Part shown: one piece after another, positions 5,944 to 53,356 of the stretch | How the letters are laid out: each line of letters begins with the position of its first letter | Numbering within the stretch: the first letter of the stretch is position 1 | From: an uncultured Oscillibacter sp. | GTDB taxonomy: Bacteria; Bacillota; Clostridia; Oscillospirales; Oscillospiraceae | DNA: 53,356 nucleotides | Direction: 5' to 3' | NCBI GenBank assembly: GCA_947644365.1 | Contig: CANRYZ010000005.1 | Span: 1 to 53,356, forward strand | Notes under the pieces: generated by a model | What the model saw: only the letters and a program-made list of their open reading frames with translations | Told to the model about the DNA's origin: nothing | Database searches by the model: none | Made by a program: the position numbers and the translations under genes

Positions 5944-7791
5944 ATGACCCGCGACGAATTGAAGGATAAGGCCAACGCCCTGCCCCTGGCCCCCGGGGTC
6001 TATCTGATGATGGACAAGACCGGCAAGGTCATCTATGTGGGCAAGGCGAAGAAACTGAAAAACCGGGTGAGCCAATACTTCCAGGACAGCGCCTCCCACA
6101 CCGCCAAGACCCGGCAGATGGTCAGCCAGGTGGACCGCTTCGACACGATTTTCGTCACCAGCGAGTTTGAGGCCCTGGTGCTGGAGAACTCCCTCATCAA
6201 GCGCCACATGCCCCGCTACAACATCCTGCTCAAGGACGACAAGGGCTATCCCTTCGTGCGCCTTTCCAAGGACGCCTATCCCCGCTTCACCATGACCCAC
6301 AAGTGGGCAAACGACGGAGCCCGGTACTTCGGCCCCTTCGGCGGCCGGTTCGAGACCCGCCAGGCCCTGGACGCGGTGCTCTCCGCCCTGCGCCTGCCCA
6401 CGTGCAGCCGGAAATTCCCCCGGGACATCGGGACGGAGCGGCCCTGCCTGAATTTCCACATGGGCCGGTGCGACGGCTTCTGCCGCCCCGAGATGACGGC
6501 GGAGGAGTACCGCCGCCGCATTGACCAGGCGGCTCTGATGCTGGAGGGCCGGGCCAGGCAGCTCCTGCGGGAGATGACCGCCGAGATGGAGGCGGAGGCG
6601 GAGGCCCTGCGGTTCGAGCGGGCGGCGCTGCTGCGGGACCGGATCAGCGCCATCCAGGCCCTGGGCAAGAAGCAGACGGTCATCGCCGGGCTCTGCGCCG
6701 ACACGGACATCTGGGGCCTCTACCGGGGCAGCGGCAAGTGCTGCTACGCCGTGCTCCACATGGAGGAGGGAAATCTGGCGGGCCGGGAGACAGAGCTCTT
6801 TACCGCTCCCATGGAGGAGGACGAGACGGAGATGCTCTCCGCCCTGACGGCCCAATACTACCTCCCCCGGGCCATACTGCCCCACGAGATCCTCCTGCCT
6901 CTGGGAGCGGAGGAGGACTGTGAAAACCTCTCCCAGGTCCTGACGAAACGGGCGGGGCACAAGGTCTGGGTCCACGTCCCCCAGCGGGGGGAGAAGGCGG
7001 AGCTGCGGGCCATGGCCCAGCGCAACGCCGCCGAGGAGGCGGAGCGGGCCACCACCGCCCAGGAGCGTGTGGCCCACACCCTGGAGCTGCTCCAGAAGAT
7101 GCTGGACCTCCCCGCCCCCCCGGAGCGGATGGAGTCCTTCGACATCTCCAACACGGGGAAGAGCGACATCGTGGCCTCCATGGTGGTGTACGCCGGCGCC
7201 CGGCCCTTGAAGAGCGCCTACCGCCGCTTTCACATCAAGGAGCTGCCGGAGGGCCGCCCGGACGACTACGCCTCCATGCGGGAGGTCCTGCGCCGCCGCC
7301 TCCAGCGGGCCGCCGACGGGGACGAAAAATTCCTTCCCCTGCCGGACGTGTTTTTGATCGACGGCGGCGAGACCCACGCCCGGGCGGCTCTGGACGTGGC
7401 CCAGGCCTTCGGCGCCGCCGTCCCCATTTTCGGCATGGTGAAGGACGACCGCCACCGCACCCGGGCCCTGGTGACCCCCGAGGGCCGGGAGATCGGGATC
7501 GTGGGCAATCCGGCGGTGTTCTCCCTCATCGGCCAGATCCAGGAGGAGACCCACCGCTTCGCCGTCGCCTTTCACCACGAGAGCCACAGCAAAAGCGCCA
7601 CCCGCTCGGCCCTGGACGGCATCCCCGGCGTGGGGCCCAAGCGGCGGGAGGCTCTGCGGAAGCGCTTCGGCACCATAAAGGCCATCCGGGAGGCGGATGT
7701 GGAAGCCCTGGCGGAGGTGCTCCCCCGGGACGCGGCGGAGGCGGTGTGGAGCCGCTTCCATCCGGCGGAGCCGGAAGCAAAGACCCCCTGA
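5944..7791 (+). CDS. uvrC: excinuclease ABC subunit UvrC
   Basis: A 615-residue nucleotide-excision-repair nuclease that cuts DNA on both sides of a lesion marked by UvrA-UvrB. Domains in order: the N-terminal GIY-YIG nuclease (GVYLMMDKTGKVIYVGKAKKLKNR, residues about 18-42, for the 3' incision), the Cys-containing linker (CSRKFPRDIGTERPCL), a UVR motif near residue 210 that contacts UvrB, the RNase H-like endonuclease (SFDISNTGKSDIVASMV and VFLIDGGETH, for the 5' incision), and a C-terminal helix-hairpin-helix (GIPGVGPKRREALRKRFG). Length and motifs are complete. The ATG at 5944 follows AAAAAAGGGAG. A small membrane protein gene starts 12 bp after its stop. Confidence 0.97.
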   Translation: MTRDELKDKANALPLAPGVYLMMDKTGKVIYVGKAKKLKNRVSQYFQDSASHTAKTRQMVSQVDRFDTIFVTSEFEALVLENSLIKRHMPRYNILLKDDKGYPFVRLSKDAYPRFTMTHKWANDGARYFGPFGGRFETRQALDAVLSALRLPTCSRKFPRDIGTERPCLNFHMGRCDGFCRPEMTAEEYRRRIDQAALMLEGRARQLLREMTAEMEAEAEALRFERAALLRDRISAIQALGKKQTVIAGLCADTDIWGLYRGSGKCCYAVLHMEEGNLAGRETELFTAPMEEDETEMLSALTAQYYLPRAILPHEILLPLGAEEDCENLSQVLTKRAGHKVWVHVPQRGEKAELRAMAQRNAAEEAERATTAQERVAHTLELLQKMLDLPAPPERMESFDISNTGKSDIVASMVVYAGARPLKSAYRRFHIKELPEGRPDDYASMREVLRRRLQRAADGDEKFLPLPDVFLIDGGETHARAALDVAQAFGAAVPIFGMVKDDRHRTRALVTPEGREIGIVGNPAVFSLIGQIQEETHRFAVAFHHESHSKSATRSALDGIPGVGPKRREALRKRFGTIKAIREADVEALAEVLPRDAAEAVWSRFHPAEPEAKTP

Positions 7792-16318: not shown

Positions 16319-16356
16319 TAAAAAACCACGGATATGCACGTATGGCATATCCGCGG
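16319..16356 (-). terminator. riboswitch-controlled intrinsic terminator
   Basis: On minus, a 12-bp stem (GGATATGC core) with a short loop is followed by TTTTTT, between the TPP aptamer and thiE. A CCACGG segment just upstream (complement of 16361-16366) can compete for the CCGTGG half, offering an antiterminator. This fits transcription attenuation by TPP. Confidence 0.8.
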
Positions 16357-16368
16357 CGTTCCGTGGCT

Positions 16369-16452
16369 ATTTCCCTACGTTGGCATGATCCAAATCAGGT
16401 CTCGGGTCGAAGCGGCGCTTCCTCTCAGCCCGCGGACGGGCTCCCCTGTTGT
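16369..16452 (-). ncRNA. TPP riboswitch (THI element)
   Basis: Minus-strand sequence shows the conserved TPP aptamer segments in order: GGGGAGCCC, GGGCTGAGAGG (the CUGAGA motif), ACCCGAGACCTGA, TTGGATCATGCCAACG and GTAGGGAA. It lies about 70 bp upstream of thiE. On binding thiamin pyrophosphate it should favour the downstream terminator and switch off thiED. Confidence 0.95.
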
Positions 16453-16459
16453 CGTGTCT

Positions 16460-47093: not shown

Positions 47094-47734
47094 TGCATCC
47101 GCTCCTGCTTTACCTTGTGGTCCACCACGTGGCGCCGCTCCAGCTCCCGGGTGACGTCCTCCACGGTGATGCCCATCTGCACCATGAGGACCATGACGTG
47201 GTAGCACAGGTCCGCGATCTCGTAGACGGTCTCCGCGCGGTCCTCCTTGCGGCCGCCGATGATGACCTCGGTGCACTCCTCGCCCACCTTTTTCAAAATC
47301 TTGTCCAGACCCTTCTCGAAGAGGTAGGTGGTGTAACTGCCCTCCACGGGGCTGGTCTTTCGCCCCTGGATCAGGCGGTAGAGCCCCTCGTAGCTGAACT
47401 GCTTCAATTCCTCGGAGAGATAGAGCTCATTGAAAAAACAGCTCTCCGCGCCGGTGTGGCAGGCGGGGCCGTCCTTCACCACCTCCACCACCAGGGCGTC
47501 GCCGTCGCAGTCGGCGGTGATGGAGACCACGTGCTGGCGGCTGCCGCTGGTCTCCCCCTTGCGCCAGAGCTCCTGCCGGCTGCGGCTCCAGAAGCAGGTG
47601 CGGCGCTCGTCAATGGTGATGGCCAGGCTCTCGGCGTTCATATAGGCCAGCGTCAGGACTTCTTTTGTATAGTGGTCCTGCACAATCGCAGGGATGAGGC
47701 CTTTTTCATCGAATTTTAATTCCTTGATTTCCAT
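47090..47734 (-). CDS. hisI: bifunctional phosphoribosyl-AMP cyclohydrolase / phosphoribosyl-ATP pyrophosphatase
   Basis: A 214-residue HisIE fusion for steps 2 and 3 of histidine synthesis. The HisI part (residues 1-105) has [42 protein letters not shown] and the metal-binding [21 protein letters not shown]; the HisE part (115-214) has [28 protein letters not shown] and [11 protein letters not shown]. The start is the ATG at 47734 with AAGGAGC 7 nt upstream. An open extension to 47932 reads into the repeat element and is not protein sequence. It is separated from hisF by 697 bp filled with the structured element. Confidence 0.95.
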
Positions 47735-47751
47735 AGATGCTGCTCCTTCTG

Positions 47752-47770
47752 GTCCCCCTGACAGGGGGAC
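47752..47770. repeat. hairpin at the hisIE-proximal edge of the element
   Basis: GTCCCCC-TGACA-GGGGGAC, a perfect 7-bp stem about 18 bp upstream of the hisIE start. It may be part of the element or a separate leader structure. Confidence 0.55.
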
Positions 47771-47789
47771 GGGGATTGTACTCGCCCTT

Positions 47790-47908
47790 GCGGGCGGGGC
47801 GGAATTCAGCCATGTCGATGGCTGGTCCAGATGCACCCCCCATTTTCTCTTTTCGCCGCGCCGAAAAGAGAAAACGGGCCGTGCACGGTCCAAAAGAGAA
47901 AAGGGCGC
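47790..47908. repeat. left terminal inverted repeat of element copy 1
   Basis: Pairs with 48288-48410 over most of its length; the outer 45 bp differ only at a few positions, with small length differences in the TCTCTTTTC stem. Confidence 0.8.
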
Positions 47909-47986
47909 TTTTGGCACTCGCGGGAGCCTCACGCTTCGATGGAAGGGCGCTCAGGAAATTTGATGGTTAGACGCATAGACGTTCTT

Positions 47987-48101
47987 CTCTTCCCGCGCTT
48001 CGCGCCTAGTCCCCACCGTGCGGGGAAGAGAGTTTGTCTACCGGCGGTAGGACGGCGAGCCCGCCCAAACGTGCCGGGCCAGGCGCGAAGCGCGGGAAGA
48101 G
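47987..48101. repeat. core long-range stem of element copy 1
   Basis: Arms 47987-48006 and 48082-48101 are perfect 20-bp complements (CTCTTCCCGCGC..). The 75-nt interior holds CCCC/GGGG, CTACC-GGC-GGTAG-type and GGCG/CGCC small hairpins. Confidence 0.8.
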
Positions 48102-48251
48102 GCGCTAGGGACGATGCGTCAAAGATGCAAAACAACCTCGGGGGCACTCGCAGATGCGGCAGAGCGCCCCATCGAGGTACGCTGTCAGACGCAGCCGGCA
48201 GAAGGCTACCAGGGTCCTATGGGCACCGGTTCAGGCCAGCCCCCGTACTTT

Positions 48252-48287
48252 GGGCACAATTTGACCCTCGCGGTCAAATTCGTGCCC
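48252..48287. repeat. distal core hairpin of element copy 1
   Basis: GGGCAC..TTTGACC pairs with GGTCAAA..GTGCCC around a CTCGC-type loop, directly inside the right terminal repeat. The window ends in the same hairpin of copy 2. Confidence 0.75.
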
Positions 48288-48410
48288 GGCGCCTCTCTTT
48301 TCTCTTTGGACCGTGCACGGCCCGTTTCTCTTTTCTCTGGCAAGACAGAGAAAAGAGAAATGGGGGGTGCATCTGCCCAGCCATCGACATGGCTGAATCC
48401 CGCCCCCGCG
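48288..48410. repeat. right terminal inverted repeat of element copy 1
   Basis: Reverse complement of 47790-47908. It ends about 20 bp from the hisF stop codon. Confidence 0.8.
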
Positions 48411-48431
48411 GCGCCAGCCGCGCCCACCATC

Positions 48432-49187
48432 TCACACCCGCACGGGCACCCCCATATCCCTCAAATACGCCTTCAAGGCAGAGATTTCCACCTGCCGGGT
48501 ATGGAAAATTGAAGCCGCCAGCCCGGCGTCCACCCCAGGATGAGTGAAGAGCTCCGCAAAATCCTCCATCCTCCCGGCCCCGCCGCTGGCGATAATGGGC
48601 ACGTTCACCCGGCTGGCCAGCTCGTCCAGCATCTCCAGGTCGAAGCCCCGCTTCACCCCGTCGGTGTCGATGGAGTTCAGCACGATCTCCCCGGCCCCGG
48701 CGGCCACGCCCTTTACGGCCCACTCCATGGCGTCGATGCCGGTGTCCTCCCGGCCGCCCTTGGCGAAGAGGCGGAATTGCCCCTCCACCCGCTTCACGTC
48801 CATGCTCAGCACCACGCACTGGTCGCCGTACTTCTTGGCCCCCGCGGCAATGAGCCCCGGGTCCGCAATGGCCCCGGAGTTGACGCTGACCTTGTCCGCG
48901 CCGCACTTGAGCACCCGGTCAAAGTCCTCCAGGGTCCGGATGCCGCCCCCCACCGTCAGGGGGATGAAGATCTCCGCGGCCACCCGGCGCAGAATGTCCG
49001 TGAACAGGTTCCGCCCCTCGGCGGAGGCGGTGATGTCGTAGAACACCAGCTCGTCGGCGCCGGATTCATTGTAGAACCGGGCCATGTCCACCGGGTCCGC
49101 CATGTCCCGGAGGCCCTGGAAATTGGTGCCCTTCACCACCCGGCCGTCCTTCACGTCCAGGCAGGGGATGATGCGCCGCGCTAACAT
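48432..49187 (-). CDS. hisF: imidazole glycerol phosphate synthase cyclase subunit
   Basis: A 251-residue TIM barrel, the cyclase half of IGP synthase; it uses ammonia from HisH to make IGP and AICAR. Catalytic Asp11 (IIPCLDVKDGRVVKG) and Asp130 (VVLSMDVKR) are both present, with GGGIRTLEDF and IASGGAGRMEDF phosphate sites. Full length. The start overlaps the hisA end by 7 bp. It is the last gene before the structured element. Confidence 0.97.
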   Translation of the reverse strand: MLARRIIPCLDVKDGRVVKGTNFQGLRDMADPVDMARFYNESGADELVFYDITASAEGRNLFTDILRRVAAEIFIPLTVGGGIRTLEDFDRVLKCGADKVSVNSGAIADPGLIAAGAKKYGDQCVVLSMDVKRVEGQFRLFAKGGREDTGIDAMEWAVKGVAAGAGEIVLNSIDTDGVKRGFDLEMLDELASRVNVPIIASGGAGRMEDFAELFTHPGVDAGLAASIFHTRQVEISALKAYLRDMGVPVRV

Positions 49188-52686: not shown

Positions 52687-52743
52687 GTTGAAACACCTCT
52701 TTCAGATATGGGGGTAATGCCCCTTTGGGGCGGGGGGCGGGGC

Positions 52744-53356
52744 TTGTACTCGCCCTTGCGGGCGGGGCGGATTTCAGCCATGTCGATGGCTGGTCCAGAT
52801 GCACCCCCCATGTCGTCGGAAGAAACTCCGCCGCTACATTTCCGGCTAACGCCGAAAATTCCGCTCAAGCTCCGTTCCTTCCTCCTCTCCCCACCGGACC
52901 CGCTTCGCTGGGCTCCGGCGGGGGCCCCTTTCTTTTCGCCGCGCCGAAAAGAGAAAACGGGCCGTGCACGGTCCAAAAGAGAAAAGGGCGCTTTTGGAGG
53001 TCGCGGGAGCCTCACGCTTTGATTGAAGGGCGCGCAGAAAATTTGATGGGTAGACGCATAGACTTCCTTCTCTTCCCGCGCTTCGCGCCTAGTCCGCTCC
53101 GTGCGGGGCAGAGAGCTGGTCTACCGGCGGTAGGAGGGCAGGCCTGCCCAAACGTGCCAGGCCAGGCGCGAAGCGCGGGAAGAGGCGCTAGGGGCGATGC
53201 GTCAAAGCAGCAAAACAGCCTCGGGGGTATTCGCAGATGCGGCAGAGCGCCCCCGCAAGGTACGCTGTCAGACGCAGCCGGTAGAGGACTGGCAATTCAC
53301 CTTGGCACCGATTCAGGCCAGCCCCCGTACTTTGGGCACAATTTGACCCTCGCGGT
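52744..53356. mobile_element. structured repeat element, copy 2 (truncated by window end)
   Basis: Same orientation as copy 1 and alignable from TTGTACTCGCCC onward. The left arm (52744-52990) carries about 120 bp of extra sequence (about 52811-52930) relative to copy 1, with its own GC-rich hairpin. The 20-bp core stem is unchanged (53070-53089 with 53165-53184). The window stops inside the distal hairpin, so the right arm is not visible. Confidence 0.8.
53070..53184. repeat. core long-range stem of element copy 2
   Basis: Arms 53070-53089 and 53165-53184 are perfect complements identical to those of copy 1. Inside, GGGCAGG/CCTGCCC replaces the GGCG/CGCC of copy 1 and CCGC/GCGG replaces CCCC/GGGG, so pairing is kept while sequence changes. 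Confidence 0.8.

Follow-up and report, generated by a model that had tools for sequence, protein, structure and literature searches.

What occupies the gap between hisF and hisIE, two co-directional genes on the minus strand of the window (the whole stretch of 53,356 nucleotides analysed here, from an uncultured Oscillibacter sp.), is the question raised by this locus. The gap measures 697 bp, or 700 nt when the hisF stop codon is counted, and an earlier note made from the sequence alone had proposed that it is nearly filled by one large element, either a mobile element, a structured RNA or both. Our analysis confirmed such an element, which probably represents the ORF-less form of a new family of large, non-autonomous mobile elements of foldback-like type in Oscillospiraceae.

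Architecture of the element between hisF and hisIE

The element is one giant imperfect palindrome without coding capacity at about 47771-48430, slightly longer than the previously assigned 47776-48413, with host DNA starting directly outside 47771. Terminal inverted repeats are present as described, but with two small outer hairpins counted in, the arms measure ~135 nt instead of ~120 bp; the outer arm consensus was read from the first 110 of 240 collected arms. Each end of the his copy carries three successive hairpins. The outermost, hp1 (CGCCC-GGGCG), has diverged in the right arm; it is followed by hp2 (CAGCCAT-ATGGCTG) and by the large hp3, in which a pyrimidine/purine hairpin starting with TGCACCCCCC runs into the palindrome CCGTGCACGG. 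The following features were assigned from the evidence named in each line (strand given as a dot throughout):

47771..48430, strand., whole element, ORF-less form, in the hisF/hisIE gap (inverted arms, arm consensus, copies)
47783..47796, strand., left-arm outer hairpin hp1, CGCCCttgcGGGCG (sequence, collected arms)
47807..47824, strand., left-arm hp2, CAGCCAT-ATGGCTG (sequence, collected arms)
47832..47894, strand., left hp3, type A: terminal hairpin 47832-47885 plus palindrome GGGCCGTGCACGGTCC at 47876-47891 (inverted-repeat search, hp3 covariation, comparison of ends)
47907..48289, strand., core, itself an imperfect palindrome (inverted-repeat search, copies, core covariation)
47987..48012, strand., core stem, 5' side (inverted-repeat search, I2)
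48038..48050, strand., centre CTACCGGCGGTAG (sequence comparison with L085, L088 and L093)
48076..48101, strand., core stem, 3' side (inverted-repeat search, I2)
48305..48371, strand., right hp3, type C: hairpin 48314-48371 plus palindrome 48308-48323 (inverted-repeat search, hp3 covariation, comparison of ends)
48378..48395, strand., right-arm hp2 (sequence)
48408..48421, strand., right-arm hp1-like hairpin, diverged form GCGGCgccaGCCGC (sequence)

The arms are inverted repeats over the outer 30 nt (47796-47825/48377-48406, 97%), over 18 nt (47828-47845/48358-48375, 100%) and over 23 nt (47872-47894/48305-48327, 100%), and each also folds on its own, at 47832-47885 and 48314-48371, as had been predicted. 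The two halves of the ~380-nt core are again roughly complementary around the centre CTACCGGCGGTAG. The perfect long-range core stem of the earlier note was recovered as 21 successive perfect pairs within a 26-nt stem of 92% identity (47987-48012/48076-48101). Folding of 658 nt yielded -395 kcal/mol (z = -15.9) and folding of the reverse strand -407 (z = -16.2), with 0 of 20 shuffles as low in either case. No promoter- or terminator-like site was detected in 47700-48480. A search of the whole window against Rfam at gathering score gave no match on the element, and for 11 related loci in E-value mode only sub-threshold, chance-level matches fell on it. The sole Rfam match in the window is a TPP riboswitch at 16354-16457 (-), just above its gathering score; among the related loci, a T-box leader-like match below gathering score (64.7 of 93 bits) adjoins an element at L061:183-391 (-).

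Copies, distribution and occupied sites

The search for further copies that the earlier note had called for retrieved 40 separate places with similar DNA in the element's own draft genome (G000; 117 contigs, 70% complete), the his copy included. These places result from the merging of 42 search rows, the 41 other rows being 80-94% identical, and since 24 of the 40 lie within ~30 bases of a contig end, some of them represent the halves of a single copy. A second copy was found within the window:

52740..53356, strand., second copy, cut by the contig end (copy search), with a ~119-bp foreign repeat inside its hp3 at about 52813-52931

A second repeat of ~115-120 bp is nested in hp3 of several copies, i.e. 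at 52813-52931 of the window, near 1072-1250 of L085, on the thiI side of L033, and in L214 and L217. It is flanked in L033 by AATGGGG on both sides, which by eye resembles a target duplication, and it looks like a smaller mobile repeat targeting the larger element.

Contig titles place the element family in Oscillibacter/Dysosmobacter, and cultured carriers of the hp3 pattern include Oscillibacter sp. 1-3 and O. valericigenes An411/An860. Within this genus group, the arm covariance model of hp3 (R1) matched 30 of 41 genomes, with 1 to 78 matches per carrier (at most 85 candidates per genome scored), and gave no match in the other 11. Across the order, matches were obtained in 3 of 197 genomes, comprising the own genome and weak matches in two other genera of the same family. 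The elements of these genera (L274 and L271 in G111; L275 and L272 in G224) follow the same design in different letters, with a pyrimidine hairpin at each end. They have the inner motif CCAGAGGGGG-CCCC(T)CTGG in common. In L274, an ORF of Cro/C1 type (HTH_26, 44.6 bits, cut-off 22) lies divergent from a 52-codon ORF without Pfam match.

An arm profile yielded 305 arms in 211 loci, with overlapping loci entering twice. Most loci of the other G genomes had been gathered by similarity to the his element, and a further set of loci, among the matches listed, with the exact 23-nt hp3 pattern. The 83 inward-facing arm pairs correspond to 74 distinct elements of 388-1720 bp with a G+C content of 0.49-0.65, distributed over 30 genomes (counted after merging of duplicate genomes; further duplicate pairs are possible). 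No inward-facing pair exceeding 1720 bp was present among the collected loci. Half elements, consisting of one arm and ~230 nt of half core as judged by eye, occur as well. According to a rough ORF rule, 183 of the 241 arms with enough flank adjoin a gene start or end, with 58 unassigned.

Element-free counterpart sites exist at yidC-yidD, at two sites of G024 (L039 and L077) in comparison with G061, and at hisF-hisI. The left flanks of the two G024 sites are 96% and 90% identical to G061 and the right flanks 78% and 74-91%, with alignments ragged at the outer ends. Thirty hisF-hisI loci were taken from 36 genomes with a hisF match: four hold an element, 15 have a gap of 8-72 bp, nine contain other DNA, and the remaining two are L235, with ~170 bp before the contig ends in hisI, and L239, which ends too soon. 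On a his-locus tree of 29, the four filled sites require three changes, and only G000 and G006 are sisters. No clean target-site duplication was seen at three empty/filled comparisons, and the outer boundaries vary. The suggestion of a non-autonomous mobile element is thus supported by many copies with shared ends and variable flanks, by element-free sites in relatives and by covarying end hairpins.

Elements also recur at the same loci across genomes, forming 36 clusters that comprise 98 of 246 unique flank sides. In G005 and G033, the elements at obgE and at L060/L167 have outer arms and a near-identical hp3 in common, and their XRE proteins are alike by eye, so we regarded them as inherited; at thiI-cinA, a switch of type has taken place in one arm, with the outer flank still alignable. 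Same-locus arms of different genomes had a likeness of 0.763 versus 0.756 for other loci of the same two genomes (73 pairs, 37 of them above background), and were less alike than paralogs (0.81-0.84). This pattern indicates concerted evolution, or else that identical sites were targeted repeatedly. Recurrence at the same loci, together with the inheritance of some elements, is compatible both with mobility and with elements that have long been resident and perhaps serve the host.

Constant hp3 ends and variable interiors

The most constant part of the element is hp3, a terminal hairpin of 66-72 nt. When the proposed covariation test was applied to the copies, the signal was strong in hp3 and weak in the core. 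Alignment A1, consisting of 18 of 22 non-redundant arms (<90% alike) out of 113, fits the hairpin model with 99.1% of cells pairing, and both-side changes were found in 12 of 25 pairs versus 4.3 in shuffles (0/500), with a covariation score of 0.258 versus 0.105; for a measure of further pair types, the result (60/500) was ordinary. Template-switch correction is another potential source of covariation in palindromes.

For the own genome, copies were taken from the whole-element search, and their arms were selected by means of two short motifs and a profile built on hp3. Among 27 left ends, 15 carry exact hp3 type A, as in the his copy, and 11 exact type B, while nine of 13 right ends carry exact type C, which is that of the his copy and is also present in G006. 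In a comparison of the adjoining DNA that additionally required an hp3 motif with up to four mismatches, the inner 120 nt beside hp3 were 86-90% alike among these copies, and identity at 70-100 nt outside hp3 was 0.26-0.30 for types A and C, and 0.65 for type B, whose elements share DNA further out. In G005, one exact hp3 is present in 9 of 18 arms and the next 100 nt inward are unrelated (0.35 identity). All 13 genomes with at least five arms have hp3 more alike than the DNA on either side, a likeness due in part to the choice of loci, hp3 also being the feature used to find the arms. Arms with an exactly repeated hp3 are common in G000, G005, CAJTFN, G033, G006 and KE159707, but most arms have an hp3 sequence of their own in G013 (7 arms, 7 sequences), JAFBIV (5, 5), CANAWG (10, 8), JACSNX (9, 8) and G024 (14, 10). 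On balance, hp3 behaves as a movable end.

The interiors vary: some hold a non-coding core, others a gene for an XRE repressor and, divergent from it, a small DUF6809-like gene. The lack of protein-coding capacity put forward by the earlier note therefore applies to the his copy and not to the whole family; these gene-bearing relatives, like the constancy of hp3, had been missed because a single window was seen. XRE matches were obtained for 15 of the 74 distinct elements, in eight genomes, and for none of the other 59. The XRE gene usually has a divergent neighbour, an ORF of ~70-100 codons with a match or a resemblance to DUF6809, and the centre CTACCGGCGGTAG of the his copy lies near the site of this gene pair in longer copies. 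In L085 and L088 the reading frames end beside the central motif, and L085 contains a 12-of-12 consensus promoter between the XRE gene and its divergent partner.

With the DUF6809 model (PF20648, cut-off 27 bits), the partners in L062 (35.1 bits) and L167 (28.5 bits) pass, and those of L088 (19.6 bits) and L085 do not; three of seven partner proteins match at E up to 0.01. Among the 60 best DUF6809 matches of the genus (without one split piece and the weaker matches), an arm lies within 1.2 kb in 14 of 20 XRE-paired cases versus 0 of 40 unpaired ones, and in four of those 14 (L300, L303, L319, L332) a complete ORF-less element follows immediately downstream of XRE. An association of DUF6809 with arms at the level of whole genomes was discarded: it is confounded, as the highest-scoring DUF6809 matches lie far from arms. 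The best NCBIfam score of the element XRE proteins was that of the RstR phage repressor model in 4 of 4 tested (43.8-68.3 bits, cut-off 80), and two XRE proteins matched general HTH-type models only in PHROGs and PADLOC. None of seven partner proteins matches PHROGs, PADLOC returned nothing for the partner proteins, and the name DUF6809 was not found in the literature searched. The XRE/DUF6809-like pair may constitute a control or addiction module.

The longest element (L193:5186-6905, 1720 bp) contains, besides an XRE gene, a further long ORF with many cysteines as possible extra cargo. At L170:3697- and L178:3951+ (L069 being the same place as L178), half elements are followed by an ORF in the neighbouring DNA, which by eye is XRE-like but of a different type.

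Competing explanations, known systems and significance

Occurrence at ~40 genomic places, an intergenic position and the occasional presence of two small genes led us to regard the his block as one copy of a miniature mobile element and not as an isolated special RNA. The RNA that the earlier note had envisaged, a discrete functional molecule of ~640 nt closed by its own ends and acting in processing, attenuation or as a ribonucleoprotein, would agree with the very low folding energy, the covarying arm hairpins and the location between co-directional his genes. An element acting as one end-closed RNA should have two matching arms, whereas arm likeness was 0.762 within elements (n = 45) versus 0.790 for arms taken from different elements in one genome (208 comparisons), 1993 of 2000 random re-pairings scored as high as the true arm pairs, and the own-genome ends fall into distinct types (left-left 0.850, right-right 0.923, left-right 0.716; 0/1000). 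As the arms of one element match no better than those of different elements, such an RNA is not conserved. In the core, 4 (plus strand) or 1 (minus strand) of 88 predicted pairs vary between Watson-Crick types, in a test of low power because the 16 cores are similar. Considering also the unrelated interiors of elements with the same hp3 in G005, the missing promoter inside the his copy and the missing Rfam family, we regard this RNA as highly improbable.

A resident host element, whose hp3 arms serve as sites for a host DNA- or RNA-binding process such as chromosome organisation or mRNA 3'-end formation or processing, at fixed intergenic sites and with mobility being ancient, would account for the same loci in different genomes, for the outer arms, inner genes and near-identical hp3 shared by G005 and G033 at obgE and L060/L167, and for the greater constancy of hp3 relative to core or flanks. 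It is nonetheless unlikely given the 11 genus genomes without match, the range of 1 to 78 matches among carriers, the element-free sites in related species, and same-locus arms that are no more alike than other-locus arms. More doubtful still is a mini-element of a phage-like or plasmid-like replicon, in which XRE and its small partner would form a switch, hp3 an origin or packaging hairpin, and a helper would be needed. While the RstR scores (below cut-off) and the divergent gene pair with its perfect consensus promoter in L085 point in this direction, the hp3-to-hp3 DNA of the his copy matches none of 50,697 phage and 72,556 plasmid records, viral contigs give one pattern match only, no partner protein matches a PHROG, and 59 of 74 elements are without XRE match. 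The viral-contig match, L211, has its arm at 6607-6686, near the end of a 6.8-kb contig.

The mobile reading is based on the copies, the covarying hp3, presence and absence at orthologous sites, the variable interiors and the within-genome homogenisation. In such an element, the hp3 hairpins would be the functional ends, recognised in trans by a factor, such as a recombinase, that binds the hairpins and would move or recombine the elements, leaving the interior free to hold a non-coding core or the divergent XRE/DUF6809-like pair. Copies would exchange sequence, with gene conversion as the putative cause of homogenisation, and ORF-less copies would be passengers; the his copy itself would contribute nothing but stable hairpins in the operon transcript. 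Among the inner ORFs, part of which was family-searched, no transposase was seen. Three candidate mobilisers were rejected: Y1 transposase (PF01797) occurs in 15 of 41 genomes and was undetected in G000, G005, G006 and G020 (incomplete drafts; G020 92%), RVT_1 occurs in 16 of 41 and was undetected in G000, G005, G018 and G024 (G018 95% complete), and IS110 (Transposase_20, PF02371) occurs in 15 of 41 and was undetected in G000, G005, G006 and G024 (G024 91% complete). All three were undetected in G000, G001, G002, G005 and G060, drafts of 56-83% completeness.

Eukaryotic foldback transposons possess long inverted repeats around a variable or missing interior, as do the present elements, but their ends are long arrays of subrepeats instead of one covarying hairpin and two small ones, and they belong to another domain of life. 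REP/BIME/REPIN elements are moved by RAYT (Y1) transposases, in contrast to the present family with Y1_Tnp undetected in the carriers G000, G005, G006 and G020. Palindromes in inverted pairs with variable spacing and high copy number are shared with REP/BIME/REPIN, whose REPs measure 20-40 bp (PMC3116915, PMC3733652). Structured RNA and mobile ends recall IStrons and group I and II introns (PMC4227781), while no Rfam intron match was obtained and reverse transcriptase was undetected in G000, G005, G018 and G024. The nearest known kind are bacterial MITEs, although they differ from the present family in size, base composition and gene content. MITEs such as Correia/NEMIS, ERIC/RU-1, RUP and RPE, for most of which no mobiliser is known, stay below 200 bp and are A+T-rich; most have TA ends and target-site duplications, and as a unit they encode no protein (PMC2229807). 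The present elements resemble them in being multi-copy and intergenic with terminal inverted repeats, strong RNA structure and no transposase inside, and differ in their 388-1720 bp, their G+C-rich composition (0.49-0.65), ~135-nt composite ends, no clean target duplication at the three sites compared, and an optional gene pair (XRE in 15 of 74) (PMC2229807). In keeping with the earlier note, neither Rfam nor the literature searched provided a named family; no account of these elements was found in that literature, which included parts of PMC2229807 and PMC2267715, with most subscription papers and all preprints outside the search.

A more far-reaching view, to which we assign a low likelihood, is that of a self-spreading element class in several Oscillospiraceae genera, with a conserved hairpin as movable end for arbitrary interiors, a mechanism without the three tested transposase/reverse transcriptase types, uniformity through conversion and its own XRE/DUF6809-like control module. 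A mobiliser of a new kind would mean a further chemistry of transposition or recombination. The elements form a high-copy repeat in a gut genus; they sit inside operons of core genes and probably break draft assemblies, given the 24 of 40 places near contig ends. They offer a natural test of how a hairpin is kept while its surroundings drift, and the XRE/DUF6809-like pair provides a first handle on DUF6809.
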